This document shows, one piece after another, positions 1,276 through 44,600 of a stretch of 64,000 nucleotides of DNA (position 1 is its first letter; every line of letters starts with the position of its first letter). The notes under the pieces were generated by a model. The model was not told the origin of the DNA and did no database searches. It saw only the letters and a program-made list of their open reading frames with translations. Position numbers and translations under genes: made by a program. The DNA is from Plumapathes pennacea (lineage: Eukaryota; Cnidaria; Anthozoa; Antipatharia; Myriopathidae): positions 22,062,597-22,126,596 of the forward strand of contig OZ038466.1 in the NCBI GenBank assembly GCA_964036295.1, in the 5' to 3' direction.

Positions 1276-2292
1276 AAACAAAACTCTTTCGGACCCTTTA
1301 TGAAAGACTCGACATGAGGTAAGCTTCATTGGGATTCATTATGGGGAGTTTTGATCTTTATGTTTGTGGAAATGAAGACAACGCGCGCTCTTCTTTTATT
1401 ACGCCACATGGCGGCTCCACTCGCGCGCGCACCAACACACTTTATTTTTTCCTTCTCTGCAGTCAAACCATAAATAAAACTAACAACTCTACATAATCCA
1501 TCTAAATAGAACCTTGCCCTGGCAAAGTATTAAACTTCAAACGTCAACCACGTGTCCTACTGTACATATCGAGTACATCATACGGACTTGAAATTCGCTC
1601 TCATATAGAATAGCAACCATTACACAATATAATAAAAGGTACTTTTTCCGGATACAAATCAGTATTCTGTATCAAAAATAGCGTTGACATCATTTCATGT
1701 CGAATTCTTCACTGATAAACAGCGCATGAAGTAACTGACTATAAAACTATAGACGAGTCTTCATTTGTTTATTGGTTTGTTGTCTGTCTTTTGCTGTTCG
1801 AATTTTGACCTAAAAATGACTAAAAATTGAGAACCTAGCTTCTGAATGCTATTAATAAACGCATGTCATAAAGACTGATTTACCTTAAACTGATTTAGAA
1901 GTAGAACAGAACATCTTCAGTACACGTGGAAGCTACAGTTTTGCCGCCGTTTATGGCACGTTTTGATGCTAGGTTTCATGGTCTTCCGTTCCTGTCACTT
2001 GAGTACTTTTGCTGCCTCATGTCATGAAGAAGTGCACCAAGGATATAACAACCGGCCAGTACCAAGTCACCGCCAAACTTTGAAGTGTCCCGGAGAAAGA
2101 AAGACGTCAGTGAAGACGCGTACCAGGATAATAATGAAAACCGCGAAGTACAACTTACAAGGCCAAACTTTGACGTCTCTCGGAGAACGACAAGGAATAC
2201 GCCGTTGTATTCAGTGAAGCAGCGCACCAAATATCAAAACTGCCAAGTACAGCTACCAAGTGTTTCGGCCGAAGACAAGGACCAAATGGACG

Positions 2293-3228
2293 CATCTTCT
2301 ACCTCGTGTACTACAAATGCCGTAAACTTGTGAAAACTATCGTGACGTCAGCCCCATGGGGGCTCACAGAACCAATCAACTGTCCGAAATATATCAACCG
2401 GAATTCTGTGAAATGTAGGCATTCCGTGACAAAACGGGTTTGGGAGAATGGACAGCATGTCACACAACCAAAACATACCAGAAGTCACACTGGCATGAAA
2501 ATATGTTGCTTTTGTGAATAAAAATTCACAGGTACACATCTTCGTAAAGGTTGAACTGGGAATTTCTGGATCAGGGCAAGGGGATATCTGCGAATACCGT
2601 ATTTCTAGAAATTTTGGACGCGTCTTCCACCTCGTGTACTACAAATGCCGTAAACTTGTGAAAACTATCGTGACGTCAGCCCCATGGGGGCTCACAGAAC
2701 CAATCAACTGTCCGAAATATATCGACCGGAATTCTGTGAAATGTAGGCATTCCGTGACAAAACGGGTTTGGGAGAATGGACAGCATGTCACACAACCAAA
2801 ACATACCAGAAGTCACACTGGCATGAAAATATGTTGCTTTTGTGAATAAAAATTCACAGGTACACATCTTCGTAAAGGTTGAACTGGGAATTTCTGGATC
2901 AGGGCAAGGGGATATCTGCGAATACCGTATTTCTAGTAATTTTGGACGCGTCTTCCATCCGTGTGCTACAAATGCCGTAAACTTGTGAAAACTATCGTGA
3001 CGTCAGCATATATCAACCGGAATCCTGTGAAATGCAGGCGTTCCGTGACAAAATGGACAGCATGTCACACAATCAAAACATATCAGAAGTCACACTGGCA
3101 TGAAAATATGTTGCTTTTGTGAATAAAAATTCTCAGGTACACATCTTCGTAAAGGTTGAGCTGGGTTTTTCTGGATCAGGGCAAGGGGATATCTGTTAAT
3201 GCAATATTTCTAGTAATTTTGGTTTTAC
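2293..3228. repeat. 328-bp tandem repeat, two near-identical copies plus one degraded copy
   Basis: Copy 1 (about 2293-2620) and copy 2 (about 2621-2948) differ at only a few bases. Copy 3 (about 2949-3228) has lost two internal segments, including the ccccatgggggctcacagaa block, and carries more substitutions. Copies 1 and 2 each hold a 71-codon open frame ending in a residue pattern like a C2H2 zinc-finger linker (HTRSHTGMKICCFC), but no promoter or splice context supports translation. Confidence 0.9.
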
Positions 3229-11700: not shown

Positions 11701-14150
11701 CAAGACGAGAGATGATTTGCACGTCAGATATTTGCTACTAATTTCCAACGATCAATACTACTAAGCGCCTGCGTGCCACATCCAATTTCTTTCACAGGAA
11801 TCACGGTGTCTCTCGTTGCCGTATGAACCGCGAGCCAGCCTGTGAGTCGTCGGCTAGCTTTCTGGTTGTGTCGTTGCTTAGTGCTTTGTTAACAGTACCC
11901 TGGCTTAAAATGGACTTAATTTGCGACCAGGCTTAGTGGATGGTCTTGCGCTGAGTTGGACGAAGGAGTTGTTGGGTTGGAGATTTGCGACATCAAGAAC
12001 TGGGAACAACCTTTGGTGAGTAGAATGTCTTTTGATTTTGCATTTTTCTTGTATTCTCCCTAACCTATTATTCTAACCCATTTACTGGCATGTTTTGGAT
12101 ATCTACGTAAAACATTAAATTGTAAAATAGAAAAGCTATGCTCCGCAACATCGTGAGCACTGCCTTGAAAGTGTACTCATCGAGAGCTTTCATTAAAAGT
12201 GGCCGTGCTCGTGGGTTTCTTTTGACAGAAGCTAAATTTTTCTTGGTCGAGAGAAGGAAGGCAGTGAAGGAGTTTTAACAGCTTTTTAGTACTCTCCAAG
12301 TAGTGCTGGTTATTATTTTTTGCGACGTTTTCAATCGCATGGGCGTTAGTCAAGTAATCAACTTACCATCGCCGTAAATATTACAAGATAATCAGAAACT
12401 CTTTTCTCGAGAAACGAATTTATACAAATTTAACCAGGAAGTTCAAGTTTTCTTTATAAGTTCTGTGTTCGTTTTTTGTTTTGTTTTGTCTTGTACAGTC
12501 ATCTTTCTCACAGCCAGATCAACAGTAGCTTATAAAACTCTGCCCGTCTCAAAATTTACTTCTTACAGCCAGTATCGGGGCATTCTTACGTTTACAAAGA
12601 TAGCTCAGCACATCCCTACCATTTTAAAGCCTTATCGAGGTTTTAAAAACGTTTTGGTGATAAAAAAAAAAAGATCATTTTGAGTAGTTCATAAATAAGC
12701 TGCAATTGATTTCGTTGTTGTCCAATTCTAAATTCTCGTTTTTACAACTCTTTCTCTCATGCGTGCGTTTTTTTTTTTTTTTTTTTTTTTTCGTGTTTAC
12801 TCTTAGAGGCACTAATGATGTCTGTTCTTCTCGCTATCAATATCCGTGTTTTTGTCTTTTATTTGATTTCTTTTTTCGATAATACACGCAATGCCAAGAT
12901 TACTTAAATACTTATAAACTTATAACTCCTAACAAGAAAAATATGCCCCAAACATTTAATGGTGAGAGTGTCTTCCGCGTCTCAACGATTATCTTTTGAT
13001 TTTTACTTTAGGGACATCACAGCCTTTGCCTCGGAACATGTAAATTTGTTTAGTTAACTACGGATATTGAAAAAGGTATGTAAACTTTCACACAATTCGT
13101 GCAGTTAACTTGTCCCCTTTTTGTCGTCTCCGGTGGTTTACAGTACAGTTGATAGTTCTCTCTCTTACTATCTTACTCAAAATGTTAATCTGAAACCAAA
13201 GTGATTATGACATCTTTACGATCGATGCTTTGGTAGAAATGTACAATATTCTTGATTGGCCCTAGACAGTGTCAACGCCAGCACCAGTTTTCATTTTTCG
13301 CTTTCAAATAGAACTGATAATTGTATAACTTCGCATAAATACGGAAGAAAATACATATTTTCTAACACCTATGGCATTCGGAATGGAGACACGCCACTAA
13401 ATGTGCTGATCTATTTGGTGTGTTTTTGCAGAACTTAGGAATTTCACCACTTAATTTTAATTACTAACTGCAGTATCTGACTGTAGTTGCCATGGAAGCA
13501 TGTTTTTCTACGACTCACTGCTTCGATAAAATCGATAAATATACTGGCGTTTTACAAGTCATCAAACAATATTTGAAATACAAGATTGCTATCTATATTA
13601 ATCGCCCGAGCTAATTATACACTTTTAACTAACCAGAAGGTCCGTATCTATGTTTGATAGAGCTTTTTAAAAGAGGGTTTCCACTAAATTAACTTTAAAT
13701 GGTCGGAACAATTTTTTGTATGTTGTCTGTACTTGTGATTATTTTTATCACTTCCCTAGAAAATCATGTTGTCAGTCATGTTTTAATGTAACACCGATAT
13801 AGTGATCGTACACAGCCAAATAAGGACATTGAAATCATCACAAAAAAGTGTTTCATAAGGTGCGTTCGATTGGGTCTATTCCGGAATAGGAATAGCTAAA
13901 ATGACCCAAAGTTTTGCTTGTTTTGAGGGAGATTTTGTTTGAAATTGTTTTAAAGCCTCCATGCATGCTTGTATGATTAAGCAGCTTCCGATACATCTTA
14001 ACTTTAATCAACCCTAAGCCAAATACTTTTACCGATCAGCAGCACTATCCATGTTCCGAAATAGACTCAATTGGTAACGCCCTTAGTGTTCTGGTACAGC
14101 CTTCAAGCTTTCACGCCAGAAACCTCGATAATACATGCACTGCAGTTGTG
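8702..14150. other. Intergenic/5' region without recognised coding sequence
   Basis: It holds the SPATA6 3'UTR (end not determined), AT-rich sequence, short homopolymers (A-run near 11,432, T-run near 12,767-12,791), and two candidate noncoding 5' exons for the downstream gene: one ending at 12,015 before GTGAGT, and 13,012-13,075 between a TTTTACTTTAG acceptor and GTATGT. No open frame here has recognisable homology. Confidence 0.5.
13012..13075 (+). other. Candidate 5'UTR exon of the Patched-PKS gene
   Basis: A 64-nt segment is bounded by a pyrimidine-rich acceptor and a GTATGT donor. Its only ATG is followed at once by a stop, so it would be noncoding. A second possible leader exon ends at 12,015 before GTGAGT. 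A matching acceptor near 14,119 (tcacgccag) would join them to the coding exon. This is prediction from splice-site appearance only. Confidence 0.3.
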
Positions 14151-17100
14151 ATGCTGCTTGGTCTCACAGCTGTCTACTTAACTTGTAGATCACTTGAGAT
14201 GCGGAGAGAACTCAACGGTTCGCCGCATCGGCGTAGTCCGGCGCTCAAGATTGTGGCGTTGTCGTATCTCACACTTGCCATTTACCAGCGCAAGTTTGAA
14301 AAGCTTGGGATCTTCCTGGCTCGTCACCAGTCCGCTGTTTTGATTCTCTCGATTCTCATGGTTCTCTTGTCTTGTTGCGGGTTCTTGCGTATGGGGGAAG
14401 AGAGGTCTGTGGAATATCCTTTTGTGATGAAAGACAGCCAAGCAGAGAAAGACATAGGGGAGGCATCTGCGCATTTTCCGTTACTGGGAGCGAGAAGAGA
14501 AGAGATAATCCTGGAAGCCAAATCTGGTAAAAATGTGTTAACCAAACACTGTCTCGTTGAAGCTGTTGTCATTCACCGGATTGTAAAAAGCACCAAAGGA
14601 TTCCGAACAGTCTGCGTAAGACTTCGTAGATCTCCGTCGAGAAAGGCAAATAGTACCTGCTTTGTTCAGAGTCCCTTGGAGCTGGCCGGTCCGAAGGCGT
14701 CTAAACTAGACGACTTGACGAACATCATGGCGAGGGAAATGAACAATCCCAAGATTATCCTTTCGAGTGGCAGGACGTTTCCCTTCAGTGTCGGCGAGAT
14801 GCTCGGTGATTTCAAAGTAGGTGAAGGAAACAAGACGGTGACCGCCAGAGCGATCCGCATGGTGTACTTTGTGAAGCCTCCGAAAAACAATTTTCAAAGT
14901 GACATCATCCTTCGCATGGAGGAGATGCTTGAGAAAAGGTTGGCGATTTTACGTGCACAGACAAAGTGCACCTCTGTCTCGTTCATGACTGTCCGAATGT
15001 CGGACGAAGGAACGACAGAGCCTTTACAGCCCGACTTCTGGCTTCTGATAATTAGTGGAGCCATTTCCATGGGCAGTGGGATTATTCTCACATCGTTGTT
15101 TTGCTGTTCTAACTGGCTCGTGGTATCCTTGTTGGCTTTCGGTTGCTCCATCCTTGCCTTGGTGTGCTCCGTGGGCATGGCCTTCCTCCTCGGCCTCCAA
15201 TTCTCGCACACGTTTTGGTTCCTGCCTTTTCTTTTGTCCGGAGAGGCGGTCACCCTGGCTCTGATAGTAGTCAGAGAATTAGAGAACGGAGGACGGGCGC
15301 CTTCATACCGAGATTGCCTCGCGAGGTCAGGCTTCCTCTTGGGCTCAACTGCAGTCGTAGACATGGCTGTGTTTGGAATCGCGGTGAAGTCGTCCTTTCC
15401 CGGCGTCAGTGATTTCTTCCTTTTTGCTTTTTTTGCGGTTTTGTTTCTGTTTATCCTGTTTCTGATCCCGTTCATGGTGTTGCTGACGCTGTACATCAAA
15501 CGCAAGAAGGTCATTATCCAGGGAGGTTTGGCCAAACTTGTCCAGAAGATGTCCAGCGTGCCCATTATGAACTCTACGGCTATCAGAAAAATTGGACACT
15601 CGTTTTGGGTGAAGAAAACTGAAGCTTGGAGCCGAACAATCACCACCCTCTACGGAAGAATGATGGCGTTAATGCTAACTGCGGCAATCATCGTGTTCTG
15701 CGTGTTGTACATCTTAAGACCCGGTGGCCGATTTAACACCATTTTGTCTTTTCAGAGGAGTTCGAATATCAGAGATTTTCAGAGCGCCCGAGCGCAGATG
15801 TTTGACCAAGAGGTCGATGTCCAACTTGTTCTTTCTGGGAAGATTGACTATTCCAAGAAATCCATCCAGCGCAAGTTGTGGACCATGAGTAACTTCCTGA
15901 ATAAAGCGCCCTACAGCGCTAAACCGATCGGCAACTGGGTTGTCCCTCTCCTGCAGTGGTCACGCACCAACGAAGTGAACTGCACTGATGCAAAGTTCAT
16001 CCCATGCCTGGCCACATTCATCAAAGAGAACCCGTCATTTCGGCCCGACATCAAGTTTAGGAGACGAAATTCTACCACCATCGCCATTGGGGCGTCGCGG
16101 TTCCATCTCCACATGAAATGGGCCAATAAGGTGGCTGTGAAAATTGATTATCTCAAACAGCTCCGTGAAGATTTGAGTATCGTCCCGGCGAATATAGTCT
16201 CTGAGAAGTTCGTTCATCTGGATGAGTTCATGGTTTTCAACCAAGAGAGTCTGCTTACGTTTGGAATCGCGACTGGTGTTGTGGCTGCTGTGATCTTCAT
16301 GTTCACCCTGAGTCCTTTAGTGGGTTTCCTGCTAGGTCTGACTTTGGCCCTTCAGCTGATAGAAGCCGTGGTTCTTATCCAGATCTTGGACATACCCCTG
16401 AATCAGATCTCGTTCTTGACATTCTTCACAGGAGTGGTGGTGTCAATCAACTCGAGTATTTTCATCGCCCAGAGTTTCGTAATCTCCTCAAAGAAAAGCT
16501 CTCGAGAATGCGCGGCAGACACGTTTGCTACCTATGGACTAACCGTGCTCCTTGGAGGAGTGGTAACCATTCTTGGGTCCATCAGTCTTGGATTTGGGTT
16601 TCCTCATTTTTCCAACATCTTCCATTTTCTTCTCCCGCTGGTACTCATCCTTGGCTGGGTTCACGCGTACTTCATATTGCCGCCGTTATTGTCATTAGTG
16701 CGTCATGACCTTGGGAACTTGACACCCGCCGACGTCATAGTCCCGTCGCTTCGGTCACTCGTCGAGAGAGCGAAACGGCATCCGACTTTGCATTCGGAGG
16801 TTCGTCGCAAACCGAAGCACCCGGGAGTGTCAATAATCGGCATTGGCTGCAGGTTTCCCCAGGCGGGTAGCAAAGACGACTTTTGGGACATGTTGGTAAA
16901 CGGGAGGTGCGCAGTTGGAGAGGAGGTCCCGGAGAACAGGGCCGAGCAACGCGAACGCTTTCGGAAATACCATCACCCGAAGAGATACGTCAAGGGAAGA
17001 CTTGTGACGATGGGAGGAGCATATCTGGAGAAGATCAAAGGATTTGACGCGCATTTCTTTGGGATTTCTCCACAAGAGGCGCGCGCCATGGACCCACAAC

Positions 17101-20100
17101 AGCGGATCCTGCTGCAAGTTGTTTATGAAGCCATCGAAGATGCAGGGGTGAGGCTAGAAGATTTGCAGAAGTGTAAGACGGGCGTTTTCGTGGGAGAGAT
17201 GAATACGGACTATCGCGCACTAGTAAGCACAGAAGCGAACCTCAGCAACATCGATCAATTTACTTTGGCTGGGACGGCAGCAAGCATGTTGGCAAACCGG
17301 ATCTCGTTTTGCTTCAACTTTAATGGCCCCAGCCTGTCTGTGAACACATCCTGTTCTTCATCGCTGACTGCTCTCAAGCTCGCTTGTGACAGCTTGCACA
17401 GAGGAGACTGTGAAGTTGCCATAGTTTCCGCTCCGAGCATCGTGCTCGACTACTCACTGCAGGTTAGTAGGAGAATATATTACAGTAAAACCCCGCTATT
17501 TCGAACTCTCAAGGGAAGCGAGAAATAGTTCGAGATTGAAAGGGTTAAGGTGGTTTGATGTTTCTTTTTCTTAAGGTTATGCAGAGTTTGGCCGGCCTTT
17601 TATCTCCTGATGGGCGGTGCAGGAGCTTCGATGCTCAAGGCAGCGGCTGCGGTCGCGGTGAAGGCCTCGCCACTGTTATTCTGAAATTGACGGAGGCCTC
17701 CATTGGGGACAATGATGATATCTACTGCGAAGTGATGGCCTGTGGAATGAACAGCAACGGTCAGAGTGCAGTTCCCATAACAGCGCCAAGTTCCAAACTG
17801 CAAGCTATACTCTCACGTCTGGTATTAGAAGAGTCCGGCTTAAACGCGAACGACATCGATTACTTCGAGATGCATGGTCATGGCTCGGTTATCAATGACA
17901 CAGTTGAGATCGACGCAATTGAAGAGACCTACTGCAAGAGGATTCCTTTCGAGGAAACGCGCGCGTTGAGGATTGGCTCGGTCAAGTCTAATCTCAATCA
18001 CACAGAATCCACGTCGGGCTTGGCTGGTCTCGTCAAAGTCGCTTTGATGCTGAAGAACCAAACGTTCGCGCCCACTGTTATCTTGCGCGATCTAAACCCT
18101 GCGTTAAAACTGGAGGCGAAGGGTCTGATGGTTCAACATGAGACGGAGACCTGGAACAGGAGAGACAGCAAGCAAAGAGTTGCTGCTGTCAACTCATTCG
18201 GATTCGGTGGCTCTAACGTGCACGCCATCGTCCGGGAAATTCCTCCAAAGCCACGGATATCCGCAGAGACGCGTTCTAACGAAACTGCTGACGTCATTAC
18301 CCTGTCTGCGAAGTCAATGACGTCACTGCAAGACATGGCCAAAGCGCTCGCACATTGGTTTGAGGGTATTGATACCGAGGCTGAAAGTCTGAAACCGGAT
18401 CTGTGCTATTCCCTCAATGAACGCCGAACACAGCACACCCATCGCCTGGCGCTGGCTTTTGGTAAAGTGGACGAGGCTCACAGCGCAGTCCTTGCTTTCG
18501 CCAATCAGGACAAGGGCTGGGAAGACTTTGTGGAGTATGGAGAGACCAAAGAATCCCGAACCCGTAAGGTAGCGTTCATATTTGATGGCGAAGGCTCTCA
18601 GTGGTACGCCATGGGAAGGCAACTGATCTCGAACGAGCCCGCGTTCAAGGAAGCCATTATCCGTGTCAGTAATCTGCTGCAGAATTTGGGCGAAAAATGG
18701 TCTTTGCTAGATGTGCTGGACGCTTCAGAGGAAACATCCAGAATCGCAGAAACCTCCATCGCTCAACTGGCAATTTTCTCTATCCAGTACGCCACGGCCG
18801 AGTTACTCAAGTCATGGGGCATCTTTCCCTGCGCTGTCCTGGGACACAGTATTGGAGAGTTCGCTGCTGCTTGCACTGCAGGCTCCATCTCAGTCGAAGA
18901 AGCCGTCAGACTGGTTTTACTGCTGTCGAAGCTGCAAGAGAAATGTCCTAGCAATGGCGCCATGGCCGCGCTGGGCTTGTCTGAGGAGAAGGTGCAGAGT
19001 CTACTGATCGAGTTGAGGCTTTACCAGACGCTGGACGTGGCAGCGGTGAGCGACGCAAGTAGCGTGATCGTTTCGGGGGATTCCGAATCAATCGAGTGTC
19101 TTGGAAACTACATCGCTGTCAATTACGCCGATGTTTCCTGGGAAACCCTCAGCACCGGCCGAGCCTTCCACAGCTTCCACATGGAAACCATCAAGAAATC
19201 GTTTGAGTCCTCTGCGGGGCACATCGCACTGCGCCCTCGCCTGTCGCAGATCCCTATCTATTCGACTGTAACTGGAGATATTGTCCCGGGGAAACATTTG
19301 GACGCGAGTTACTGGTGGAAGAACATCCGCTGTCCTGTAAAGTTCCACTCGGCCGTCCAACAACTTCTGAAGGATGATCACAGGATTATGATAGAGATCA
19401 GCGCTCAGCCAAGCCTGGCCAATCATATCAAGCAGATTGCCCTACAGGACAACTACCCCGAGAAGGACATTCCCTTTGTAATGCAAACTCTGCCTCACAA
19501 AAGCGTCCCCTTGACCGAGCAGCACAGGTCGTTCCTTCATCACACCGTCTGCAAACTGTACACTCAAGGATTTTCACTGCACTGGAGGCGGATTCGTGGG
19601 GACCTGTCTGCACGGTTTATCCGCCTACCCACCTACCAATGGCAAGAGAAAGATTACTGGTACCGAGAGGACGATTGCACGGACGAGATTCCCCCGTTGA
19701 ATCCTGAAGACAGTCCCAAGATCACCCAGCGCAACCGGCATCCATTTTTGGAAAGGGCCAAGACTACCATGCAGTTCTCAGGTATTTTAAATTGAATTTA
19801 TTTGATCATTATTAAGGAAGATCTTTGCTAAATATGTTGATTTGTGGGCATGTCCGCCTTAAAGTTTCTTTGAACCTAAAAAACATGACAGGTTGTCTCT
19901 CTGTCGTCTGTACGGCGTGGACTAGTTAGTCAGATGTAGAGCATTTGCGGCATCTGTTTTAACTTAAAAGTACGACAGTCTTTTGTATATTCCTTTACCG
20001 ACTTCGTCTGACCTGTGTTCTTTCAATATTATATTCATTTGTCCACGGCTTTCCCAGTCCTCAATGATGGCTTACGTACAGTTCAGAAAATATCCTGTCG

Positions 20101-20820
20101 ATGCATCGTTACTTTAATTATCTGCTTCTTACTTTCAGGTCTGAACTGCTGGGACACAGATGTCGATCTGCATCGTTTCCCCACCCTAAGGGACCACGTA
20201 TTGATTCAGGGTGGAGCGGTTATGCCCGGTGCAACGCACTTAGAGATGGCATTTGCCATGGCGCTGGAGAAATTCGCCTGTCAAGCGGTGGAGCTAAAGA
20301 ATGTGCGGCTGTTAAACTTGCTGACCCTCCCTGAGATGCAGGTCCGCTCCTTGAGATTGAGGCTATTTGGACAGAGAGGAAATGGGGCCACGTTTCAGGT
20401 CAGCTACATTCAGGACGATAAATCCGAACTGCTTCTGTCCGATGGAGAGATTTTAGCCGATCTTCTCAGCACTGCGGGACCCCAGAAAACACGTAAGCTC
20501 TATGTTAACGATGTGACGGTATAATGTAGCGGACTCTTAGGGGAGGTCGTTTAGAGATTTAAACTGTCGTGCTTCAAGACCATATATACTTCATCTATGG
20601 TTACAATTTACAATTGATGATTACAAATACAATTTATAGATGTGTTCACATTTTATTACCGAAGTATTTATCATGCTGTTGACTATATATAGGAAACACA
20701 GCAGAGAATAACTTCTCTGCCGTTTAAAGTTAATGGCAACTTTAGCTGGAACATGTCGCTTTTAAAGTTGGTGTTTGTATTTATGATGATGATATTCACT
20801 TGTTGTGTTGTTGATGTTGT

Positions 20821-20852
<32 letters not shown>

Positions 20853-23800
20853 ATGTTTGCCTTACAGTGGATCAGAGTGTGGCCGGTGAGAACATCAAGC
20901 AGTTCGCTGTTCAGATGCAAGAGATGCCGTTGATGGAACACAGACAGCTTACCGAGAAATACGGCTACAACTTCGGTCGTGCCTTCTCCATTATCAAGCG
21001 CATTTGGCGAACCGCAAACCAGGGCCTGTGTTTGATTAGCGTGGAGAACGACATGCTAATCCGCCAAGAAATGTCCAGCTACATCATACACCCCACGATC
21101 CTGGACGCGTGCCTGCAGTCCTGCCTAGTCCCTGCTGGGGATTCGTTGCTGGGCGACAAACCGCTGGTGCCCGTGGGCGCGAGGAGTGTCTCCCTCCTGG
21201 AACATCCGCGCTGTACGCAGTTGTTTTGTCACGTGACTATGAAGGCAGAGGAATGGGGCGTGTTTGACATTGTGCTAATGAGTCCGCGTGGTAAAGTGCT
21301 CTTGGCCATCAAAGACTACAGAGTAGCGGAGCTCAAGACCTCTACCTCGTCCACTAGTTTTGAAGACGTCGCTTTCGAGCAGGAGTGGCTGGAGATTTTG
21401 CCCCAGCCGAGCACCGTCAGCAGCGAAGATTACTCGCTCTACGTGGTTCTCAAAGACACGGCGGGTTTTGGGAACGCTCTCATTGAACGGCTTCACTCTT
21501 GCGGGGTTGACGTCATCGCCTTCGACCCTCCGTCGTCAGGAAACTTCGACGAGAAGGCCACAGAAGTAATCAAGAGCACGTTTGAGAATTTGCCCTCTGA
21601 CTTTCAACAAATCAAAGTCGTCAGCCTCTGGCCCGCCGAGACCTTCGATCTCCCGGAAGAGTTTGAAAGCATCGATCGGGCGCAGGGTATGGCTTTCCAC
21701 AGCTCCGTATTTCTGATGCAGTTGCTGAACAAGAACGACCTTAAGAGCACGCTGTACCTGGTTACCCGTGCAACGCAGGTTCTCTGTTGCGCAAGCGCAA
21801 TACAGAAGGCGACCATGCCTTGGGGGGCGTCTGTCTGGGGACTGAGACGAACCGCCAGCCTTGAATTTAACAATCCGACAGTCGTGGTGGTCGATTTGAG
21901 CGCCGTCAACGACCCCCGTGAAGTGAAACTTCTCAAAGACGAAGTGAGGAACAGTAGTGAAGAGGTTGAGATTGCGTATCGACAAGGGAAGAGGTACATC
22001 AACCGCCTCGTTAGAGTGAAGGAACAGAACCTGGCAGATCAAGCGTGCTCCCACCGAGACAGAAAAAGTCAGGTTTCTCTGTGTTTGGTACTTCACCCCG
22101 GCACAAAGTCTCTCTGCGTCAAGAGGCAGACAACTGGCAAGCTCTCAGAACATGACGTTGAAGTTGATGTTCTTCACTGCTGGCATCAATCTGAATCTTT
22201 ATTTCGATTAATGCAAAGCAAAAGTTGCATCTTTTTCACCGGCCGAGTGGCAACTCTACCACAAGGATCTGGGCATCGGCTTCGAGTCGGAGACGAAATA
22301 TGTGGTGTCGTGTCGTCGGGACGCTTCGGAAATCGCGTGCAGTTGGACATAAACCAGATTTTTCCTCGCCTGCCCACCATGAGCCGCGAGCAAGCGGCTA
22401 CGCTTCCGGCCTGCCTCTCTATTGCGTACCATGCAGTGCGTAAATTGGCCAATGAACGCTCGGGACAAAGAATTCTCATACACGAGGCAAACCGAGGTCC
22501 GGGCCTGGCCGCTCTTCTTATCGCCACAGCGCTCGGCCACAAAGCAGTTTGCACGTCATCAGCTGATGACATCGTCTCCTCCAGGAAAATGCTTCTGGAA
22601 ATGGGAGCGGAGCAGGTGGTGGACGCAAGTTGCTCAGATTTAACAGAGGAGACTGGTCTCTTTAGTGGAACTGTGTTTTTCTATGACCCTCTGCCCAACA
22701 CAGTGCATCAAAGCTGTCAGGTCTTGAAACGAGGCGGGAAGCTTTTGGTCGTCAGTGCGCTTGAAAGCGGAGACATCGTGCTGCGAGCTGACAAGTTTAT
22801 CGCTTATGAAAGGTAATGACTTACAGTGACTTGCTACATACTAGATAATGGAGCAGTTTTCTGATGACTGTCGCAAACTAAAATCTGCTTTGAACAACAA
22901 ACCAATCAGAAAAGCGAGAAAACACCATCGATGATTGGCCAAGAATGCTGCCAACAACTTGTTTGTACAAATCCGAATGAGTAACAAATATAAACCAAAG
23001 TAATCCCACGGTTACTTCTGACAGTCATCCGAAAGCGATTCTATAAATCCTTTACTTGGAAGAAAAAGACTTGAGCAAGAAAATTAAGCGAGTGAACTTT
23101 TCTTAATGAAAACTTAGGCCCATATACATGTGTAGGGTAAAACATTTACTTGACTGAACAAAGTTAAGAAATTGAGACTGTTTATTTTAAAATGTCTTTC
23201 TAAATATAATCCTTTCAATCCTGAGTAGCTTATATTACAAATTCGTGCTATTATCAGCTGGTTTCCACTAAACAAAGTCAACGATTTTTGTATCCTATGA
23301 TTCTTGGACAATTTTAGGTTAGATATGGCCAGCGACTTTCTGACAGCCGGAACGTTTGAGAAGCTCTGCTCGTCCAGTCTGCACATTTTGGAACAGAAGG
23401 GTTCGTTGACAAACCTTCTTAATCTGGAGCATCGATCTATTGACGTGCTTCACGCCATTAACCTCTACAACACCGACGGAGAGGGCTCTACCTATGGCAT
23501 GGGTACTTTTAGTCCCACCCTGACCGCTCTATCCTTTGCGTCATTGCAAGTGGACACAGTTACAAGTCGAGGCATCGCAGTCCTCCCCTCGGGCTTAGAT
23601 GAGCACGGGATGAAACCCAACCGAACGTACCTTGTTGTGGGACAAAGCCAAGGGATCGGTTTTGAGTTGGGGCGCTGGATGGTTGAAAATGGCGCCAAGA
23701 CTGTTGTCTTGTTGGAAAACTCCGTTCTCTCCGATCCAAAGAAAAGGGAACTGGCTGAGCTGGGGCGGAGATCAGGGTCTAAAATATTGGTGATTCAGGT

Positions 23801-26800
23801 GAGTCAGTACAGTACAACCCCGCTATTTTGAACTCGGTTATCTCGAACTCCCTGCTATCTCGAACAGAATCCGAATTCTCTTGGAAATGAACTTGGTAGA
23901 AATTTCCTCATTTTCTCAAACTATTTCCCGCTTCCCTTGAGAGTTAGAGGGGTTCTACTGTATGGTTTAGTATTGCGGACGACTGAAGATGGCCAATGCC
24001 GCGTATTAACGAACGCCATTCACTTCGATTCGGATGTATTACTAACTCCTGCTTGGTACGATTGAGATTTCTGCGATCATCAGTCGAGTTACTACGGTGT
24101 CACGTACGGTGTTAGAGAAGTTGGTATTTTCTTTGAGTAATTATGTGCACACAAAGTTCTCAAAATTTGAGGGACAGCTGAATGGCGTTTAGGTTAGAGT
24201 GCAGGCGTATCCATGTCTCGTACCTTGGGGACTTTTTCGTGATAAGCCGCACTGGGACGGAAACGAGTAATAGGGATGGCTCAAAAAGACCATGCTCATC
24301 TGAGCACGCTATCAAAAGCTAAGTTCTCCCTACTGTATGATACATCTCTGGTGAGAGACTGAAAGAGAACATTGAACTCTTGGGAGGGCTAATCAACCTA
24401 AGGTTGGTGATGTGGCGGGGGAAATCTGAACGCCGTAGAAGCAAGTGTTACCTGACGCTAAGTTCTCTAACATCCCATGTTGTTTTTTATCTCAGGGGAA
24501 CATTTCGTCTCCTCAAGAAATGACGTCACTCCATCAGAAGCTCCAGGCCCTCCCTAGCGTGGCGGGAATCGTGCTCACGGCCCACGTGATAAAACACGAA
24601 CCAATCAACGCACTTGCCATGCAGAACTTCCAGCAAGTCATGGATCCTAAAGTGAAGGGTATGTAGAGTAAGAAGAAGCATAGTTGCAATGGTAATGACT
24701 GGGATAAGCGCAAGCATAATTTAAAATAATGTTGCTTGTGCTTGCGTCACGGTTGGAAACGTCGCCAGGACAAACACAAGCAACGCAGTAACTTAGTAAC
24801 TCAGTCTTCAACGGTCAACATGTTTACAGTGTGTGGGCTGATAATAAAACTGTAGAAGAAATTGCGCTTGCGTACGATTTGATCATTCTCAAATCTCCTC
24901 CAGGTGGTTTTTTGCTTCATCAAATGAGCTGTGAAATGGAGTTGGATTTCTTCGTGATGTTCTCCTCCATGACGTCACTTATCGGAACTGTCGCCCAGGC
25001 CTCCTCTTCAAGTGCCAACGCCTTTCTCGACAGTCTGGCCCAGTACCGCCGCTGCGCGCTCGGTAAGCCGGGGCTGGCCATAAACTGGGGACCAATGGAA
25101 GGGACGAAAGGAGTTCAACCAGGCTCAGTTATAGCTCGGTCCCAGGCCTTGTCTGGGTTCGAAGTGATTTCGTGCAAACAAGGTATGTATTATAATTTAT
25201 ATATAATTTATAACTTTGGTTTTAGCAATACGGAATACAAGTGAAACAAATTTTTGAAAATGTTCAGCAACTTTTTAATAAATAGTGGTGAGTACGACAC
25301 AAAGTGTACCAATCAAAAAAGCGTAGCAAACAAAAACAAACTAAGGCAAGTTCACGATTACTTTCAACAGTCATCTGAATTCCGCTCTATCCATTCCCTG
25401 GGTTCAATAGTTCATGATTTTGCTTTTCAGGCATCGAGTACATGAAGAAGGTGCTGATAGAGGAGCCTAACAGATCTCAGATTTGTATCGCCGACATCGA
25501 CTGGGCCCAAGTCTTACGAAAAAACCCGACGCTTGCGCAGTCAACGCGCTTAGAACGGATCTCTGTCGCTGAGAACACTGCGCACGCTCTGAATAATACA
25601 GCCCAGTCTCTCGCGCCAAAAATATTGCTGGAAAAAGACGCGGGGAGGAGGAGTGGTCTTGTGCTTGAGTATGTTAAGGTAGTGATGTCGTCCTGGACCG
25701 AGACTCAGCTGACGACCGAAGCTGGAATGGCGACGAGTTTGTGCAGCTTCGGTATCGACTCGAGTGCAGCGTTCACGCTGAAAATCCAGTTCGAGGCGAA
25801 CCTACAGATTCCATTTGAGGTGAGAAAGATTGCGTAGTTTTAAGCAAGAGCGGACGAAGTACATTCACTACCATTTTTTTCGAGCTATTCTTGCAACTGC
25901 TTAAGTTGCTTAATAACTGTGAGGGTCACTTTTATTATCATTCTATGTTCCGCAGTTCACATAATTTTTATATGTTGTTATATAATATAATCATATTATA
26001 CAATCAGTTGATCAACATTGAGATCGGGTAACGTTTGGACAATTTTGTCAAAAATTATGGCCCTAAATCGAGCCAAGATTATGACCCTAATTCGAGTCAA
26101 TTGCCTCCAAACAGGTTCCTTACTTCCTCCAACCTGACACTACAATCTTGAAAGTAGCTCAGGACGTGAACGAGCGACTGAACGAACAGCAGTATGGCAT
26201 AGCTAGTGAAACTTCGAGTGACGCAAAAGCTGCTTCAAGGGCAAACCCTGGCGCTGAAAATGCCAATTCTTCAGAGGCAATACCGACTTGTAAGGTGGTA
26301 CCTCTGTACACCCCCGACGGGTCAGCGGTCAAGCTCTTCTGTGTACACCCGTCACACAGACTTGCGTCCAGTCTGGCGACCATAGCCAGCGGATTTCAGT
26401 TCCAGGTGGGTCGAGCCTCAAACAGTGTTTAGTATTAGCAGGAGCCTGGTAGTGACGTTAAGTCCAAACCATGATGCACTGGGGCACTAAAGTGGGCAAC
26501 GGTTTCCAGTTTCCATACGTTTGCTTTTCTTTTATGTTTTGCTTGGTGCCCAGGCGCTAGTTCCTCGGGCACCAAGTGTGAGCCCGGCCTAAGTGAGAGC
26601 AACATATAGCAAGATGCGAGAAAAGGAGTAGGTAAATGACCTAGCTAGAGGATACTGTCCTGTCCTTGAGGTTGTATTCTTTCTTTGTCTCTAGACCACC
26701 GTCTCATTTTACGCCTTGGGTTTGACGGAACCTGCAATTAGGAACGAGGACTGGGGTAGCGTGAGAGAACTAGCCACCAAGTACGTCACACTGATCCGAG

Positions 26801-29510
26801 CGGAGCAGCGACATGGCCCATACTTCCTCGCGGGCTACTCGTACGGAGGGCTTGTTGCGTACGAAATGGCGTGCGTACTGACAGAACAGGAAGAGGTGGT
26901 GGAGTTCCTGGGGATGATTGACACGTTTCCATGGTACCCGCCCTCCAAGTCGCTTGCTATCAAATTGACTTCTCTGTTGGCGAAGGATAAGTTACCTGAA
27001 AGACAAGTGCAGGTAAATATCACACATTATTACACTTATCTCATTCCACCTATCACACATGCAGACACAAAAAGACACTCACTTTGTTCATATGAACACA
27101 CATACGTACAGTACATCTGTCTAAACACAAATACGTGTGATAGTCAGATCGAGTTTAGTCATTTTTTGATGATGTTTTAGTGTTGAGCCGAGTTTGTTAT
27201 GTACCGCTTATTGTATTAAATTCGGATCAGGGTTATATTCGGACCCAATGTGACGCATTCGGAGACAGACCTTCAATTGAACTGTCCGCACACACAGTTT
27301 CTTTTGTCGATTATCTTTACAAGGATGATCCTCTAGAAAGCAAATTGTATATATATTTTTGATTGGCTGGCTTGGTCATCTGTCATAAGGACTAAAGACA
27401 CGCATTTTAGATTATTTAACGGTATCTATTATCCGTTCTCAAGGTCCAGTTTGAGGCTTACTTAGCAAAGATGGCCGTTGAGACATTGAAAATGACGGCT
27501 GAGGAATACCAGGCACTCAAAACGAGAAACAACCAACGCAGATTCATGGAAACCCTGTACCAAAGAGCCCGCGCAATGAATGTCACGATGCACGACTTGG
27601 AGGCTCTGTACCTGTCTCTTCTTCATGACCACAAAGTGGCGAGTAGAACTCACTTGGAGTGGCAACCGGCCGAGGTAATGAATCGATCAGTTCCCTCTTT
27701 TTTACGAAATAGAACAATTAGTCCTTGAATACTCGACTGCTGCTATCGTAAACTCAACTCAGGGAACTCTTCAACTACTCCTAAAATTTAATTTGGACGT
27801 GTGTCAGTTACACGGGTTAAAGTTTGTTTTTTTTTCGTCTGCTTCGACCATCTCTAATTGTCTGTTTTAGAGAGGTGTCCACCTTAAAAGAGTTCAGGTA
27901 GAGTAAATGACCGGGAGGGACCTCTTTTATCGGGTGTCCGTCTTAGGGAGGTGTCCGTTAAGAGGAAGTTCACTGTATTCCTAACCAGATTTCAGCTGAA
28001 AAAGTGTCCGTTCTAAAATAGAGTTTACGTACAGAAAACACTTTGAAATTCGACCGGGACGACGGAAACATGTCCGCGTTACAGAATTGTCTGTCTAACA
28101 GTGGTGTCCGATCTGAGGGAGGTCACGTTGCTTTCCTCTGGTGTCTGCTCATTACCCTTCATACAATGTCCAAGAAACCAACAACACAATCCTCTTTCTT
28201 TTTTTTTGTTTTTGTTTTTGTTTTGTTTTTTTTTTTTGTTTTTTGTTTTTTTTTTTTCATTCAGGTCAGATACCCAGGCCGACTAACTTATCTAAAAGGA
28301 GAAGATAAAAAATCCACCGCGAGTCCCCCAACAATGGAGGCTCACAAGGCTTGGGCCCAGGTTGTTAACGGCAATATCGACGTGTACGTGTGTCCTGGGA
28401 ACCACTACTCCATGGCCGAGCAGCCGCATGCGCAGCTTGTAGGCGGTGTCCTAGCAACGGCTATCAACTTCAAGTATCAGTCCCTCTTCCCAGAGCTACG
28501 CGCTCAACCCAGGTCCTTCAAAGGACGTCGAGCTGTACAGCGGTTTCATTCCGGAGTGGCGCTATGCCTTCATTCGAAGAAAGGTATAGATAAAATGGCG
28601 TTTAATTATTCGGCCCTAGTCGTTGAGCGTATTAGTGTAGTTTTAATACGTTGTTGTATGATTGACTTTATCACCTGTCTCGTTGTCTGGATCCTTTGCA
28701 GGTCTGAAGCCCCCACGAGTTGGTGAGATTACACTCAAAGAGGACAAGAATCAGTTGCTTTTCAGGCGAAGAGGTCAGGCAGGTCTCGAGAAAACGGCAT
28801 GCAAGACCATCCAGCTGACAGGTGAGGATAACAGTGCGTTAATGCTGTCTAAAGCCCGGTTTTCTTGAGCGTCGCAAGGACAAGTGGTAGAACAAGAATA
28901 GATACTTTTTTACTTGCGCTTGTGCTTGCTTTGCTTTTGAAACCATTCTTTTTTTGGGGGGGGGGGGGGGGGGGGAGTGAGGGGAACAGTGAAATTCCGT
29001 CGTGGAGTAGGCTAGGCCACTCAAGAGACGTCAACAATTAGGGTAAAACTTTATTGCCGAAAAGTGTCTCATTTTAGATGACAGACAGTAGGATAACCAA
29101 GATGACCAAAAGTTCGATTTTCATAGTATATTTTCTCGAAATTTCCAAATTAATTCCAGCTTAACAAGCTGAAAACCCCTTCTTTCCCCCTCATAAATCA
29201 AGAAAAAAAATGTTCTCAATGCAAACCTTCCTATTGTTTGTGCAATTTGATATCGTACACTAAGCTTGGAACTATCCCTACCCCTACAGAGGCCACAATT
29301 GTGCTACCAGGACGGTACATTCCCAGTGCCATCACCGTGACAACGGATAATCATAATGCACGTGACCTCTTCTTTGGGAACCTAGATCTTGTTGCTTCTG
29401 TCGTCACACCAAAACGTGCCTTCAACTTGGAGTTCCGTGATCTTGCGGATCTGAAGTACTTCTACAGCATGACCGAAGCAATCTTTGGCACACCTATTGG
29501 GGTAGCTTAG
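14151..29510 (+). CDS. Patched/RND-type membrane domain fused to type I polyketide synthase, 14 exons, 3,542 aa
   Basis: Exons: 14151-17462, 17576-19781, 20139-20492, 20868-22812, 23318-23798, 24496-24658, 24904-25182, 25431-25819, 26115-26405, 26695-27012, 27444-27674, 28265-28583, 28702-28821, 29290-29510. Phases agree throughout, all introns are GT..AG, and the total is 10,629 nt ending in TAG. Domain order: 12-helix Patched/SSD-like (about 50-850), KS (891-1320), AT (1430-1800), DH (1825-2115), structural psiKR (2125-2340), ER-like (2360-2690), KR (2700-2900), ACP (about 2985-3060), TE (about 3095-3390), tail to 3542. There is no methyltransferase insert, so the order resembles bacterial MAS-type and animal FAS-like PKSs. 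Predicted role: assembly of a polyketide or lipid at a membrane, with the catalytic part cytosolic. The first ATG (14151) follows an in-frame stop at 13974 with no other ATG between; a splice acceptor at 14169 would move the start to 14199. Exons are visibly GC-richer than their surroundings. Confidence 0.92.
14298..16700 (+). other. Patched/RND-like 12-TM domain (residues about 50-850)
   Basis: The start EKLGIFLARHQ, then TM1 (61-80), matches the PTCHD3/daf-6 branch of Patched proteins, and NVLTKHCLVEAV fits the first extracellular loop. Helices by hydrophobicity: 296-317, 323-345, 354-375, 397-415, 422-447, 504-522, 702-720, 722-745, 752-775, 795-817, 823-848, with two large loops (81-295 and 523-700). 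This is the full 6+6 RND layout. The TM4 GxxxD position reads G364-EAV-T368 and the TM10 GxxxD/E position reads G761-VVV-S765, so both usual ion-relay acids are absent. The chain ends 40 residues before the KS, which places the synthase in the cytosol. Confidence 0.88.
16821..18230 (+). other. Ketosynthase (KS) domain
   Basis: It begins SIIGIGCRFP and contains AMDPQQRILLQ. The catalytic Cys1068 sits in VNTSCSSSL. His1204 is in EMHGHGS, where EAHGTGT is usual. His1246 is in SNLNHTES. The Cys-His-His set is complete, so decarboxylative condensation is predicted. The domain is split by the 113-bp intron 17463-17575. Confidence 0.93.
17483..17535 (-). mobile_element. Truncated pogo-type MITE inside the KS intron
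   Basis: The end cagtaaaaccccgctatttc and the following block match, as reverse complement, the right end of the element at 59,160-59,340. It follows a TA. It fills about half of a 113-bp intron. Confidence 0.75.
18568..19670 (+). other. Acyltransferase (AT) domain
   Basis: FIFDGEGSQW (usual F.GQGSQW), the nucleophile Ser1529 in GHSIGE, and His1636 in GRAFHSFHM. The AFHS form of the latter motif is usually linked to malonyl rather than methylmalonyl choice; treat that as inference. It lies wholly in exon 2. Confidence 0.9.
19735..21350 (+). other. Dehydratase (DH) domain
   Basis: Double hot-dog region across exons 2-4. The catalytic His1859 lies in LRDHVLIQGGAVMPGA and the Asp2037 in HPTILDACLQ. 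The His-to-Gly spacing appears one residue longer than the usual HxxxGxxxxP. The second half starts YGYNFGRAFS. Confidence 0.82.
20814..20855. repeat. (TTG)n tract just before exon 4 of the PKS
   Basis: A run of GTT triplets lies within 15 bp of the acceptor at 20,867. It may act as the polypyrimidine-like tract of the intron. Confidence 0.8.
21365..22040 (+). other. Structural KR-like (psiKR) subdomain
   Basis: It begins FEQEWLEILPQ and contains PWGASVWGLRRTASLE, the usual signature of the noncatalytic half of split ketoreductases in FAS/PKS modules. No methyltransferase lies between DH and psiKR. Confidence 0.75.
22075..23595 (+). other. Enoylreductase-like (ER) domain, degenerate
   Basis: MDR fold by position and by blocks such as LRVGDEICGVV and RILIHEANRGPGLAALLIATALG. 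The nucleotide-binding GGVG is replaced by RGPG (Gly2501-Gly2503), and the usual LNFRD active-site block reads HQSES. It is interrupted by intron 22813-23317. Activity is doubtful. Confidence 0.7.
23600..25140 (+). other. Ketoreductase (KR) domain lacking catalytic Tyr
   Basis: Blocks TYLVVGQSQGIGFELGRWM, VAGIVLTAHVI, DPKVKG, FVMFSSMTSLIG and ANAFLDSLAQYRR, then LAINWG, mark a KR over exons 5-7. The usual QANYAAANAF reads QASSSSANAF: Ser2855 (codon 25005-25007) stands where the catalytic Tyr should be. The TGGxGGxG motif is also reduced. It is probably inactive. Confidence 0.8.
23810..23960. mobile_element. Pogo/Tc1-type MITE, 151 bp, TA target duplication
   Basis: It starts cagtacaaccccgctatttt and ends ggggttctactg, with inverted termini, and is flanked by TA on both sides. 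Internal tatctcgaac blocks match the copies near 29,766 and 59,160. It inserted 11 bp after the exon 5 donor. Confidence 0.85.
25640..26175 (+). other. Acyl carrier protein (ACP) domain
   Basis: FGIDSSAAFTLKIQFEANL carries the phosphopantetheine attachment Ser3024 in a GIDS context, close to the usual GxDSL. It ends across the exon 8/9 border and is followed by a low-complexity linker of about 45 residues. Confidence 0.85.
27840..28115. mobile_element. Probable DNA-transposon relic rich in GTGTCCG, PKS intron 11
   Basis: Repeated ggtgtccg/agtgtccg/ggtgtccac blocks occur with alternating spacing and the phrase gttcactgta. Non-autonomous DNA elements often look like this. Boundaries were not resolved. 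Confidence 0.4.
28200..28258. repeat. Poly-T/TTTTG low-complexity tract before exon 12
   Basis: It is almost pure T with scattered G, running directly into the tttcattcag acceptor at 28,264. Confidence 0.9.
28957..28977. repeat. Poly-G run in PKS intron 13
   Basis: About 20 consecutive G after a T-run. It could form a G-quadruplex and may be a sequencing or assembly weak point. Confidence 0.9.
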
Positions 29511-29765: not shown

Positions 29766-29850
29766 CAGTAGAACCCCGCTATCTCGAACAGAATCCGATT
29801 TCCCTCGGAAACGAACTTGGTAAAATTTTCCCTCTCGATCCCCCAATATC
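29766..29850 (+). mobile_element. Truncated pogo-type MITE
   Basis: It begins cagtagaaccccgctatctc and continues with clear similarity to the internal part of the 23,810 and 59,160 copies (aacagaatccgattt, gaaacgaacttggta). The other end was not found. Confidence 0.75.
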
Positions 29851-41689: not shown

Positions 41690-44600
41690 CGCATGAACGA
41701 AACAGCGCGGGGTGGGTGATGTTTTAATTAGTGCATGATTTCCTCTATTTACACTAATTTCTCACGACGCGCGGGCTAAAAGTTTACAAAAACTAATAAT
41801 GCAAACTTCATCCGCATAAGTCCCAGGAACGTTTTCTGAAAGTTTCATGCGATTCTGAGATGGTCGAAAAATGACCGGATTTTGACAAAATACTAAGGAT
41901 ATAGCACAGGGTTTTTTTGTCAAAAATTGAAAACTCTTGAAACTTTCAGGAAACCTTCCTTGGACTATAAGAAGACTTTTTGCGATACATTTGCTTTATC
42001 TATTTTCAACCGTTGGCGAGATATAGCAGCTTAACTCGAAAGGTGTGATGAATTAATTAGTGCATGATTTGCTGTAATTTTCTCTAATTTCTCACGACGC
42101 GCGGGCTAAAAGTTTACAAAAACTATGCAAACTTCCTCAGCATAGTCCCAGGAACGTTTCCTGAAAGTTTCATGCGATTTTGAGATGGTTGAAAAATCTT
42201 GGAATTTTGACAAAATACTAAGGCTATAGCACAGGGTTTTTTGCCGATTTTGGCCAGAAATTGAAAGCCCTTGAAACTTTCAGGAAACCTTCCTTAGACT
42301 ATAAGAAGACTTTTTGCAATACATTTGCCATATCTATCTTCAACCGTTGGCAAGATATAGCAGCTTAACTCGAAAAGTGTGATGAATTAATTAGTGCATG
42401 ATTTGCTGCAATTTTCTCTAATTTCTCACGACGCGAAGGGCTAAAAGTTTACAAAAACTATGCAAACTTCCTCAGCATAGTCCCAGGAACGTTTCCTGAA
42501 AGTTTCATGCGATTCTGAGATGGTTGAAAAATCTTGGAATTTTGACAAAATACTAAGGCTATAGCACAGGGTTTTTTGCCGATTTTGGCCAAAAATTGAA
42601 AACCCTTGAAACTTTCAGGAAACCTTCCTTAGACTATAATAAGACTTTTTGCAATACATTTGCCATATCTATTTTCAACCGTTGGAGAGATATAGCAGCT
42701 TAACTCGAAAGGTGTGATGATTTAATTAGTGCATGATTTGCTGCAATTTTCTCTAATTTCTCACGACGCGCGGGCTAAAAGTTTACAAAAACTATGCAAA
42801 CTTCCTCAGCATAGTACCAGGAACGTTTCCTGAAAGTTTCATGCGATTCTGAGATGGTTGAAAAATCTTGGAATTTTGACAAAATACTAAGGCTATAGCA
42901 CAGGGTTTTTTGCCGATTTTGGCCAAAAATTGAAAACCCTTGAAACTTTCAGGAAATCTTCCTTAGACTATAAGAAGACTTTTTGCAATACATTTGCCAT
43001 ATCTATTTTCAACCGTTGGCGAAATATAGCAGCTTAACTCGAAAGGTGTGATGATTTAATTAGTGCATGATTTGCTGCAATTTTCTCTAATTTCTCACGA
43101 CGCGCGGGCTAAAAGTTTACAAAAACTATGCAAACTTCCTCAGCATAGTCCCAGGAACGTTTCCTGAAAGTTTCATGCGATTCTGAGATGGTTGAAAAAT
43201 CTTGGAATTTTGACAAAATACTAAGGCTATAGCACAGGGTTTTTTGCCGATTTTGGCCAAAAATTGAAAACCCTTGAAACTTTCAGGAAACCTTCCTTAG
43301 ACAGTAAGAAGACTTTTTGCAATACATTTGCCATATCTATTTTCAACCGTTGGAGAGATATAGCAGCTTAACTCGAAAGGTGTGATGATTTAATTAGTGC
43401 ATGATTTGCTGCAAATTTCTCTAATTTCTCACGACGCGCGGGCTAAAAGTTTACAAAAACTATGCAAACTTCGTCGGCATAGTCCCAGGAACGTTTCCTG
43501 AAAGTTTCATGCGATTCTGAGATGGTTGAAAAATCTTGGAATTTTGACAAAATACTAAGGCTATAGCACAGGGTTTTTTGCCGATTTTGGCCAAAAATTG
43601 AAAACCCTTGAAACTTTCAGGAAACCTTCCTTAGACTATAAGAAGACTTTTGGAAAACATTTGCCCTATCTATTTTCAACCGTTGGCGAGATATAGCAGC
43701 TTAACTCGAAAGGTGTGATGATTTAATTAGTGCATGATTTGCTGCAATTTTCTCTAATTTCTCACGACGCGCGGGCTAAAAGTTTACAAAAACTATGCAA
43801 ACTTCGTCGGCATAGTCCCAGGAACGTTTCCTGAAAGTTTCATGCGATTCTGAGATGGTTGAAAAATCTTGGAATTTTGACAAAATATTAAGGCTATAGC
43901 ACAGGGTTTTTTGCCGATTTTGGCCAAAAATTGAAAACCCTTGAAACTTTCAGGAAACCTTCCTTAGACTATAAGAAGACTTTTGGAAAACATTTGCCCT
44001 ATCTATTTTCAACCGTTGGCGAGATATAGCAGCTTAACTCGAAAGGTGTGATGATTTAATTAGTGCATGATTTGCTGCAATTTTCTCTAATTTCTCACAA
44101 CGCGCGCGCTAAAAGTTTACAAAAACTATGCAAACTTCCTCAGCATAGTCCCAGGAACGTTTCCTGAAAGTTTCATGCGATTCTGAGATGGTTGCAAAAA
44201 CTTGGAATTTTGACAAAATACTAAGGCTATAGCACAGGGTTTTTTGCCGATTTTGGCCAAAAATTGAAAACCCTTGAAACTTTCAGGAAACCTTCCTTAG
44301 ACTATAAGAAGACTTTTTGCAATACATTTGCCATATCTATCTTCAACCGTTGGAGAGATATAGCAGCTTAACTCGAAAGGTGTGATGATTTAATTAGTGC
44401 ATGATTTGCTGCAATTTTCTCTAATTTCTCACGACGCGCGGGCTAAAAGTTTACAAAAACTATGCAAACTTCGTCGGCATAGTCCCAGGAACGTTTCCTG
44501 AAAGTTTCATGCGATTCTGAGATGGTTGAAAAATCTTGGAATTTTGACAAAATACTAAGGCTATAGCACAGGGTTTTTTGCCGATTTTGGCCAAAAATTG

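Follow-up and report, generated by a model that had tools for sequence, protein, structure and literature searches.

A gene joining an NPC1/Patched-type RND membrane module to a type I polyketide synthase, and its fused relatives

A single gene (14151..29510, + strand) in the window, by which we mean the whole 64,000-nucleotide stretch of DNA analysed here, encodes a 12-helix RND module of the NPC1/Patched type that continues in the same polypeptide into a type I polyketide synthase (PKS). Read from sequence, the fusion is conserved in relatives, the two halves have evolved in a correlated manner, and the TM4 Asp and TM10 Glu common to NPC1 and PTCH1 are missing from the membrane half.

The frame 14151-17462 translates without a stop from the membrane protein into the ketosynthase (KS), past Cys1068, and is enclosed in a stop-to-stop frame of 13977-17528. 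The first-pass annotation had claimed that exon 1 alone spans the membrane domain and enters the KS, so that the fusion is independent of exon joining, and the open frame confirms this. The thirteen further exons that it listed also held, joining in phase with GT-AG borders in a script-built model of 14 exons free of frameshifts and stops, with a corrected protein of 3540 aa. Only the start of exon 2 was revised: position 17585, chosen by the script, was dropped for 17576, the three extra residues being present in all seven relatives compared (P0002, P0003 and P0005-P0009). Translation may begin at the Met at 14151 or at the Met at 14199, the latter being the start of relative P0004. In a tblastn comparison the Stylophora homologue gave 13 segments covering 13 of the 14 exons, and exon 13 (40 aa), which was unmatched there, does nevertheless align in the comparison with relatives. 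No further PKS copies were found in the 64-kb window by tblastn with the joined window protein and P0002. The exons, domains and sites are as follows.

14151..17462, + strand: exon 1, the whole RND/SSD module and the first half of the KS in one frame (translation, Pfam; alternative start Met at 14199)
14274..16730, + strand: NPC1/Patched-type RND module, 12 TM, residues about 42-860 (structure matches, NPC1 profile, hydropathy)
15123..15506, + strand: sterol-sensing domain (SSD) PF12349, residues 325-452 (Pfam)
15243..15257, + strand: TM4 site, residues 365-369, E-A-V-T-L in the window and K-x-x-x-D in most relatives (alignments)
16449..16451, + strand: TM10 Asn767, opposite the Glu of NPC1/PTCH1 (alignments)
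16827..18079, + strand: ketosynthase (Cys1068, His1204, His1246), split by intron 1 (Pfam, motif alignment)
17576..19781, + strand: exon 2, the remaining KS, the acyltransferase (AT) and the beginning of the dehydratase (DH) (exon model, homology, tblastn)
18575..19441, + strand: acyltransferase (Ser1529; GQG changed to GEG) (Pfam, motif alignment)
19739..21334, + strand: dehydratase, exons 2-4 (Pfam)
20139..20492, + strand: exon 3, DH (exon model, tblastn)
20868..22812, + strand: exon 4, the end of the DH, a centre without Pfam match and the beginning of the enoylreductase (ER) (exon model, Pfam, tblastn)
22502..23360, + strand: enoylreductase-like fold (PF00107 at 29.9 bits, under the cut-off of 31.8)
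23318..23798, + strand: exon 5 (exon model, tblastn)
23625..25100, + strand: ketoreductase (KR), exons 5-7 (Pfam)
24496..24658, + strand: exon 6 (exon model, tblastn)
24904..25182, + strand: exon 7, with Ser2855 (25005-25007) at the KR Tyr position (exon model, motif alignment, tblastn)
25431..25819, + strand: exon 8, ACP motif with Ser3024 (25760-25762) (exon model, motif alignment, tblastn)
26115..26405, + strand: exon 9 (exon model, tblastn)
26331..28423, + strand: thioesterase (TE), exons 9-12 (Pfam)
26695..27012, + strand: exon 10, TE with GYSYGG (exon model, motif alignment, tblastn)
27450..27674, + strand: exon 11 (exon model, tblastn)
28265..28583, + strand: exon 12, TE His and start of the tail (exon model, motif alignment, tblastn)
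28702..28821, + strand: exon 13, C-terminal tail, the weakest-supported exon (exon model; aligned with relatives, no Stylophora tblastn match)
29290..29510, + strand: exon 14, C-terminal tail and stop codon (exon model, motif alignment, tblastn)

Several repeats lie in and around the gene. A TTG microsatellite occupies 20800-20857, directly upstream of the exon 4 acceptor. Short stretches resembling ccccgctatctcgaac were seen by eye in introns near 17480 and 23810 and in intergenic DNA near 29770 and 59260, at the last of which the stretch is also a 16-bp repeat; it is perhaps a dispersed repeat. About 12 kb downstream of the fusion gene is a tandem satellite (41716-56866; 333-bp unit, 45.5 copies, 96% matches), and a 328-bp unit is present in 2.2 copies with 98% matches at 2287-3007. 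Two open frames on the + strand, 58637-59254 and 59394-59696, contain portions of a lipase of the pancreatic type (PF00151, E 1e-23 and 1e-22, respectively), a second lipid-related gene roughly 29 kb downstream of the PKS.

Hydropathy of the window protein gives 12 helices in the order 1 + loop + 5 / 1 + loop + 5 and none beyond residue 889; a cruder count gave 14. Helices 1-6 occupy residues 61-79, 311-329, 331-349, 356-374, 394-412 and 427-445, and helices 7-12 residues 504-522, 710-728, 730-748, 755-773, 797-815 and 826-844. The large loops behind helices 1 and 7 follow the RND order of two six-helix repeats. Structures of NPC1, NPC1L1, NCR1 and PTCH1 were matched by this half, those of NPC1 and PTCH1 across both helix bundles. 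The domain search that had been proposed for the fusion places PF12349 (Sterol-sensing; 45.3 bits against a cut-off of 22.3, E 1e-11) in a single chain with PF00109 (ketoacyl-synt; 201.5 bits, E 2e-59). PF12349 also passes its cut-off in the Stylophora homologue P0002 and in relatives P0100 and P0122. PF02460 (Patched) remains below its cut-off of 23 in the window protein, at 20.2 bits, and P0122 reaches 26.8. An MMPL domain was found in Pfam searches neither of the exon 1 frame (E up to 0.1) nor of the joined protein (E 0.01). The earlier label of a Patched/SSD-like domain is fair, but NPC1 is the nearer relative, since the NPC1 model TIGR00917 (E 3e-19) outperforms the Patched model TIGR00918 (E 1e-3). 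NPC1 proper it is not: the TIGR00917 score is 68 bits against 1016 for the full model, and the match begins at profile position 307, from which we conclude that the N-terminal sterol-binding domain of NPC1 is absent.

The synthase half displays the domain order KS-AT-DH-psi-ER-KR-ACP-TE, followed by a C-terminal tail. Pfam recovered SSD, KS, AT, DH, ER-like, KR and TE domains from the joined protein. The ACP was absent from this list at E 0.01, yet its Ser motif is present by alignment, and even in Stylophora PF00550 barely passes (20.9 bits against 20.8). By motif alignment, the protein retains the KS Cys1068 (within NTSCSSS), His1204 and His1246, the AT Ser1529, the DH His1859 and the Asp of ILDACLQ, the ACP Ser3024 and the TE Ser-Asp-His, which we take to be the catalytic residues of these domains. 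The set of KS Cys-His-His, AT Ser, ACP Ser and TE Ser-Asp-His expected of a type I PKS is thus present, and the KR catalytic Tyr expected of a fully reducing one is not: its position holds Ser2855 in the window copy and Tyr in all six relatives covering the region. Relative to homologues, the AT motif GQGSQ is changed to GEGSQ and the KS motif EAHGTGT to EMHGHGS. The GGVG-type loop of the ER is RGPG in this copy, as it is in six of seven relatives. The PKS had been described as complete; this stands for the domain order, but catalysis in the window copy is doubtful given a KR Tyr replaced by Ser, GEG in place of GQG and HGHG in place of HGTG, and with the KR, ER and AT changes taken together its activity appears uncertain. 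The tail of about 110 aa (about 28590-29510) has no Pfam family at E 0.01; four relatives possess it, with an identity of 35-37%. Among solved structures the KS was matched best by PKSs, a single KS scoring as high as 143 bits, whereas animal FAS reached 110 bits. PDB entry 7zma was considered as a fused relative and rejected, as its two matched stretches both turned out to be KS domains.

With the membrane half as query and only long proteins as targets (4,873 candidates), two matches were obtained, both of them fusions: P0003 and Stylophora pistillata LOC111325863 (P0002), a protein of 3533 aa with 32% identity across 95% of the membrane half. When proteins of about 607-1932 aa were searched, with scores computed for the 7,999 candidates sharing the most words, seven matched. 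Six of these were fusions, including P0004, which is 80% identical to the window protein and has the same fusion border and exon end; the seventh, P0010, is a weak match (24% over 16%) with no KS domain listed. The KS-AT-DH region gave 1,897 matches among 8,000 scored proteins. The best 120 of these 1,897, together with P0004, make up the 121 database proteins examined; the window protein itself (P0001) and P0010 were left out. We set the line for an animal-like KS at 48% identity or more; among the 121 proteins examined, drawn from the matches listed, 107 reach it, and in all 107 the KS is preceded by the membrane half, whole or in part. In these 107 the membrane half was detected at BLASTP E ≤1.3e-52 with 8-13 predicted helices, and the entries P0028, P0039 and P0096 hold only part of it. 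None of the 14 proteins with a bacterial-type KS (33-38% identity) carries the membrane half among the matches listed. The same fusion, which the first-pass annotation had named as support to be sought in relatives, was therefore found in every animal-like KS protein among those examined.

The named bearers of the fusion are the stony corals Stylophora pistillata, Desmophyllum pertusum and Oculina patagonica, and most of the fused relatives are presumably corals; the nearest named relatives also point to an anthozoan source for the window. Among the matches listed, six proteins are apparently located on one contig of length 1,995,220 and four on an Oculina record of 38,537,115, which suggests that copies of the fusion are clustered on contigs. 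Frames of about 1,870 aa cross the fusion border in most of the listed relatives, and 80 of the 107 end at most 60 aa past the same DH motif. Such frames are probably single exons, so that a single long exon would be expected to hold the membrane half, KS, AT and start of the DH. In the window gene this region is instead broken by two introns, and the border is hence independent of splicing in either. No match was found in viral contigs. A bacterial origin of the fusion was considered and set aside, as none of 80 prokaryote KS loci had an in-frame 12-helix front in a scan of 80 of 561 relatives with two KS patterns only, which is no full test of such an origin; no locus scored more than 4 helices, where the same counting method gave 14 for the window, and in 8 of the 80 the frame overran the locus.

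Distances in the membrane half and in the KS half were correlated with r 0.94 (89 rows; none of 999 permutations reached this value), and r was still 0.92 in the smallest set of 86 rows, from which the window and P0122 had been removed. Because of this correlation, the comparison of sequences indicates that the two halves evolved together. The agreement is good, not total, as only 50 of 89 rows have the same nearest neighbour in both halves. A KS-AT tree was made for 50 rows, comprising the window, 43 relatives (13 picked and 30 random) and six bacterial proteins. The 44 fused proteins separate from the six bacterial ones (100/100). Within the fused set, the outermost position, weakly supported (83/55) and on a long branch, belongs to the window gene; P0122, also on a long branch, lies outside the remaining 42 (98/99). 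A quick tree built from the membrane half and rooted at its midpoint places P0122 with the window and P0004, opposite the other 42. One ancient fusion would be the simplest reading of these trees.

The membrane half is the faster evolving, with a median distance ratio of 2.03 (1,953 pairs). For the window and P0004, the distance in the KS fragment (0.198) is as large as that in the membrane half (0.197), whereas in 35 other pairs of similar membrane distance the KS distance averages 0.089 and peaks at 0.194. The pair P0067/P0063 behaves likewise (0.194 against 0.191), which places the window pair at the edge of the distribution, not in a unique position. Of the KS-fragment columns with a conservation of 90% or more across the other 63 rows, 100 are matched by both the window and P0004, 8 by P0004 only, 3 by the window only and 9 by neither. 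The near-equal distances in the KS fragment and the membrane half suggest relaxed constraint on the KS in this pair.

NPC1 and PTCH1 both carry a TM4 Asp and a TM10 Glu, which have a role in cation coupling and align with residues 368 and 767 of the window protein. Residues were counted in the 65 of 109 fused rows that were aligned (the window and 64 relatives). An acidic residue at 368 or 767 was found in none of the 65, window included. Close to the TM4 site, Lys365 is present in 63 of the 64 relatives and Asp369, which aligns with the second of the two TM4 Asp of PTCH1, in 61; in the window and P0004 these positions are Glu365 and Leu369. TM4 hence keeps an acid in most relatives, and the TM10 site is acid-free. 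Because the TM4 Asp and TM10 Glu are missing in all rows, it is doubtful that the module operates as a cation-driven pump of the standard kind; some ion coupling via Asp369 may exist. Five Cys in the ectodomains are invariant in all 65 rows, which fits lumenal or outside loops.

The reading we prefer, and regard as evenly poised between right and wrong, is that the 12-helix NPC1/Patched-type RND module and the type I PKS work as one protein, in which a lipid-like polyketide is synthesised on the cytosolic side and the RND module acts as anchor, acceptor or regulator. With a single set of domains, the PKS is taken to be iterative. Both ends of the RND module would be cytosolic, with the synthase at the cytosolic face of the membrane, because of the topology of the RND family and the need of PKSs for malonyl-CoA and NADPH. 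The synthase would there assemble a lipid-like polyketide from malonyl units and the TE would free the product beside the membrane, the RND module serving as anchor, lipid acceptor or lipid-gated regulator rather than as a standard cation-driven pump. The product of the window copy would be expected to be less reduced than those of its relatives, because its KR lacks the Tyr. A bolder extension, which we advance tentatively and with more doubt than belief, is that corals and their relatives possess a new class of membrane-integrated megasynthases, whose product is passed into, or whose synthase is switched by, an NPC1-like lipid tunnel of its own, with ligand handling rewired around the TM4 Lys/Asp (Glu in the window copy) instead of the TM4/TM10 acid pair.

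The RND layout, with its two ectodomains holding invariant Cys, and the TE carried by the fused synthase itself would also suit a self-exporting enzyme whose membrane module actively pumps the product out, like the separate MmpL proteins, and the TM4 Lys/Asp kept in most relatives, with its Asp coinciding in the alignment with the second TM4 Asp of PTCH1, could be cited in favour of it. All 65 rows nevertheless lack the acids at the two NPC1/PTCH1 sites, and the window and P0004 are also without Asp369, though Glu365 is present, so that the export proposed in the first-pass annotation is not favoured and we consider it unlikely; an anchor that accepts or senses lipid appears to fit the alignments better, and the module may sense sterol or lipid or merely handle lipid passively. 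Somewhat closer to acceptance, while still improbable, is a feedback sensor, in which the SSD binds sterol or product and governs the activity or turnover of the attached synthase. It is encouraged by the PF12349 scores over cut-off in the window, P0002, P0100 and P0122 and by the precedent of HMG-CoA reductase, where a sterol-sensing region is joined to a lipid-making enzyme. That enzyme, however, has neither a second six-helix half nor large RND ectodomains, and the N-terminal sterol domain of NPC1 is absent here, the profile match starting at position 307.

The window copy might, on another reading that we hold to be no likelier than self-export, be a catalytically weakened synthase retained for its membrane half. 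The altered KR, GQG and HGTG positions and a KS fragment as divergent as the membrane half in the window/P0004 pair point in this direction, whereas the intact KS triad, AT Ser, DH His and Asp, ACP Ser and TE triad, and a 14-exon model free of stops and frameshifts, point away from it. That the halves act separately, after cleavage or through alternative transcripts, is very unlikely, given that a single frame spans the border in the window, that most listed relatives have frames of about 1,870 aa across it and that the histories of the halves are linked. A chimeric assembly or an artefact of the gene model has next to no probability: P0004, with its 80% identity and the same border and exon end, and the 107 fused relatives remove the objection of a chimera, and this candidate was ruled out.

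No description of the partnership of an RND/sterol-sensing module with a type I PKS turned up in the open-access library searched, and it is found in many relatives, some of them apparently clustered on one contig. Hosts, and not microbes, may therefore make unrecognised membrane-handled polyketides or lipids in reef builders. The fusion also offers a single-gene handle on the coupling of lipid synthesis to membrane delivery, which has otherwise been studied with separate partners. The earlier remark that no described case was known to its author agrees with our survey: no description of a PKS-RND/SSD fusion was found by title or abstract opening among the papers listed from the open-access literature, a scope that most subscription papers fall outside, and term searches in four papers found no such fusion described.

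With NPC1 and Patched the window protein shares the 12 helices, the two ectodomains and the SSD; it differs in running on into a PKS, and it has neither the N-terminal domain of NPC1 nor the TM4 Asp and TM10 Glu that those two have in common. HMG-CoA reductase is the nearest functional precedent, having a sterol-sensing membrane region and a lipid-making enzyme in one chain, but the enzyme is another one and no full RND module is present. The nearest precedent for the partners is that of mycobacteria, where MmpL (RND) proteins export lipids made by type I PKSs, MmpL7 with PpsE being one example; the two are separate proteins there, and the window fusion has no MMPL Pfam match. Animal PKSs and animal FAS-like PKSs (AFPKs; PMC10764717) are likewise type I synthases with an FAS-like domain order, and the words 'transmembrane', 'patched' and 'fusion' occur 0 times in the main text of that paper. 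Each half is thus of a known kind, and it is their joining in one architecture that appears to be new.
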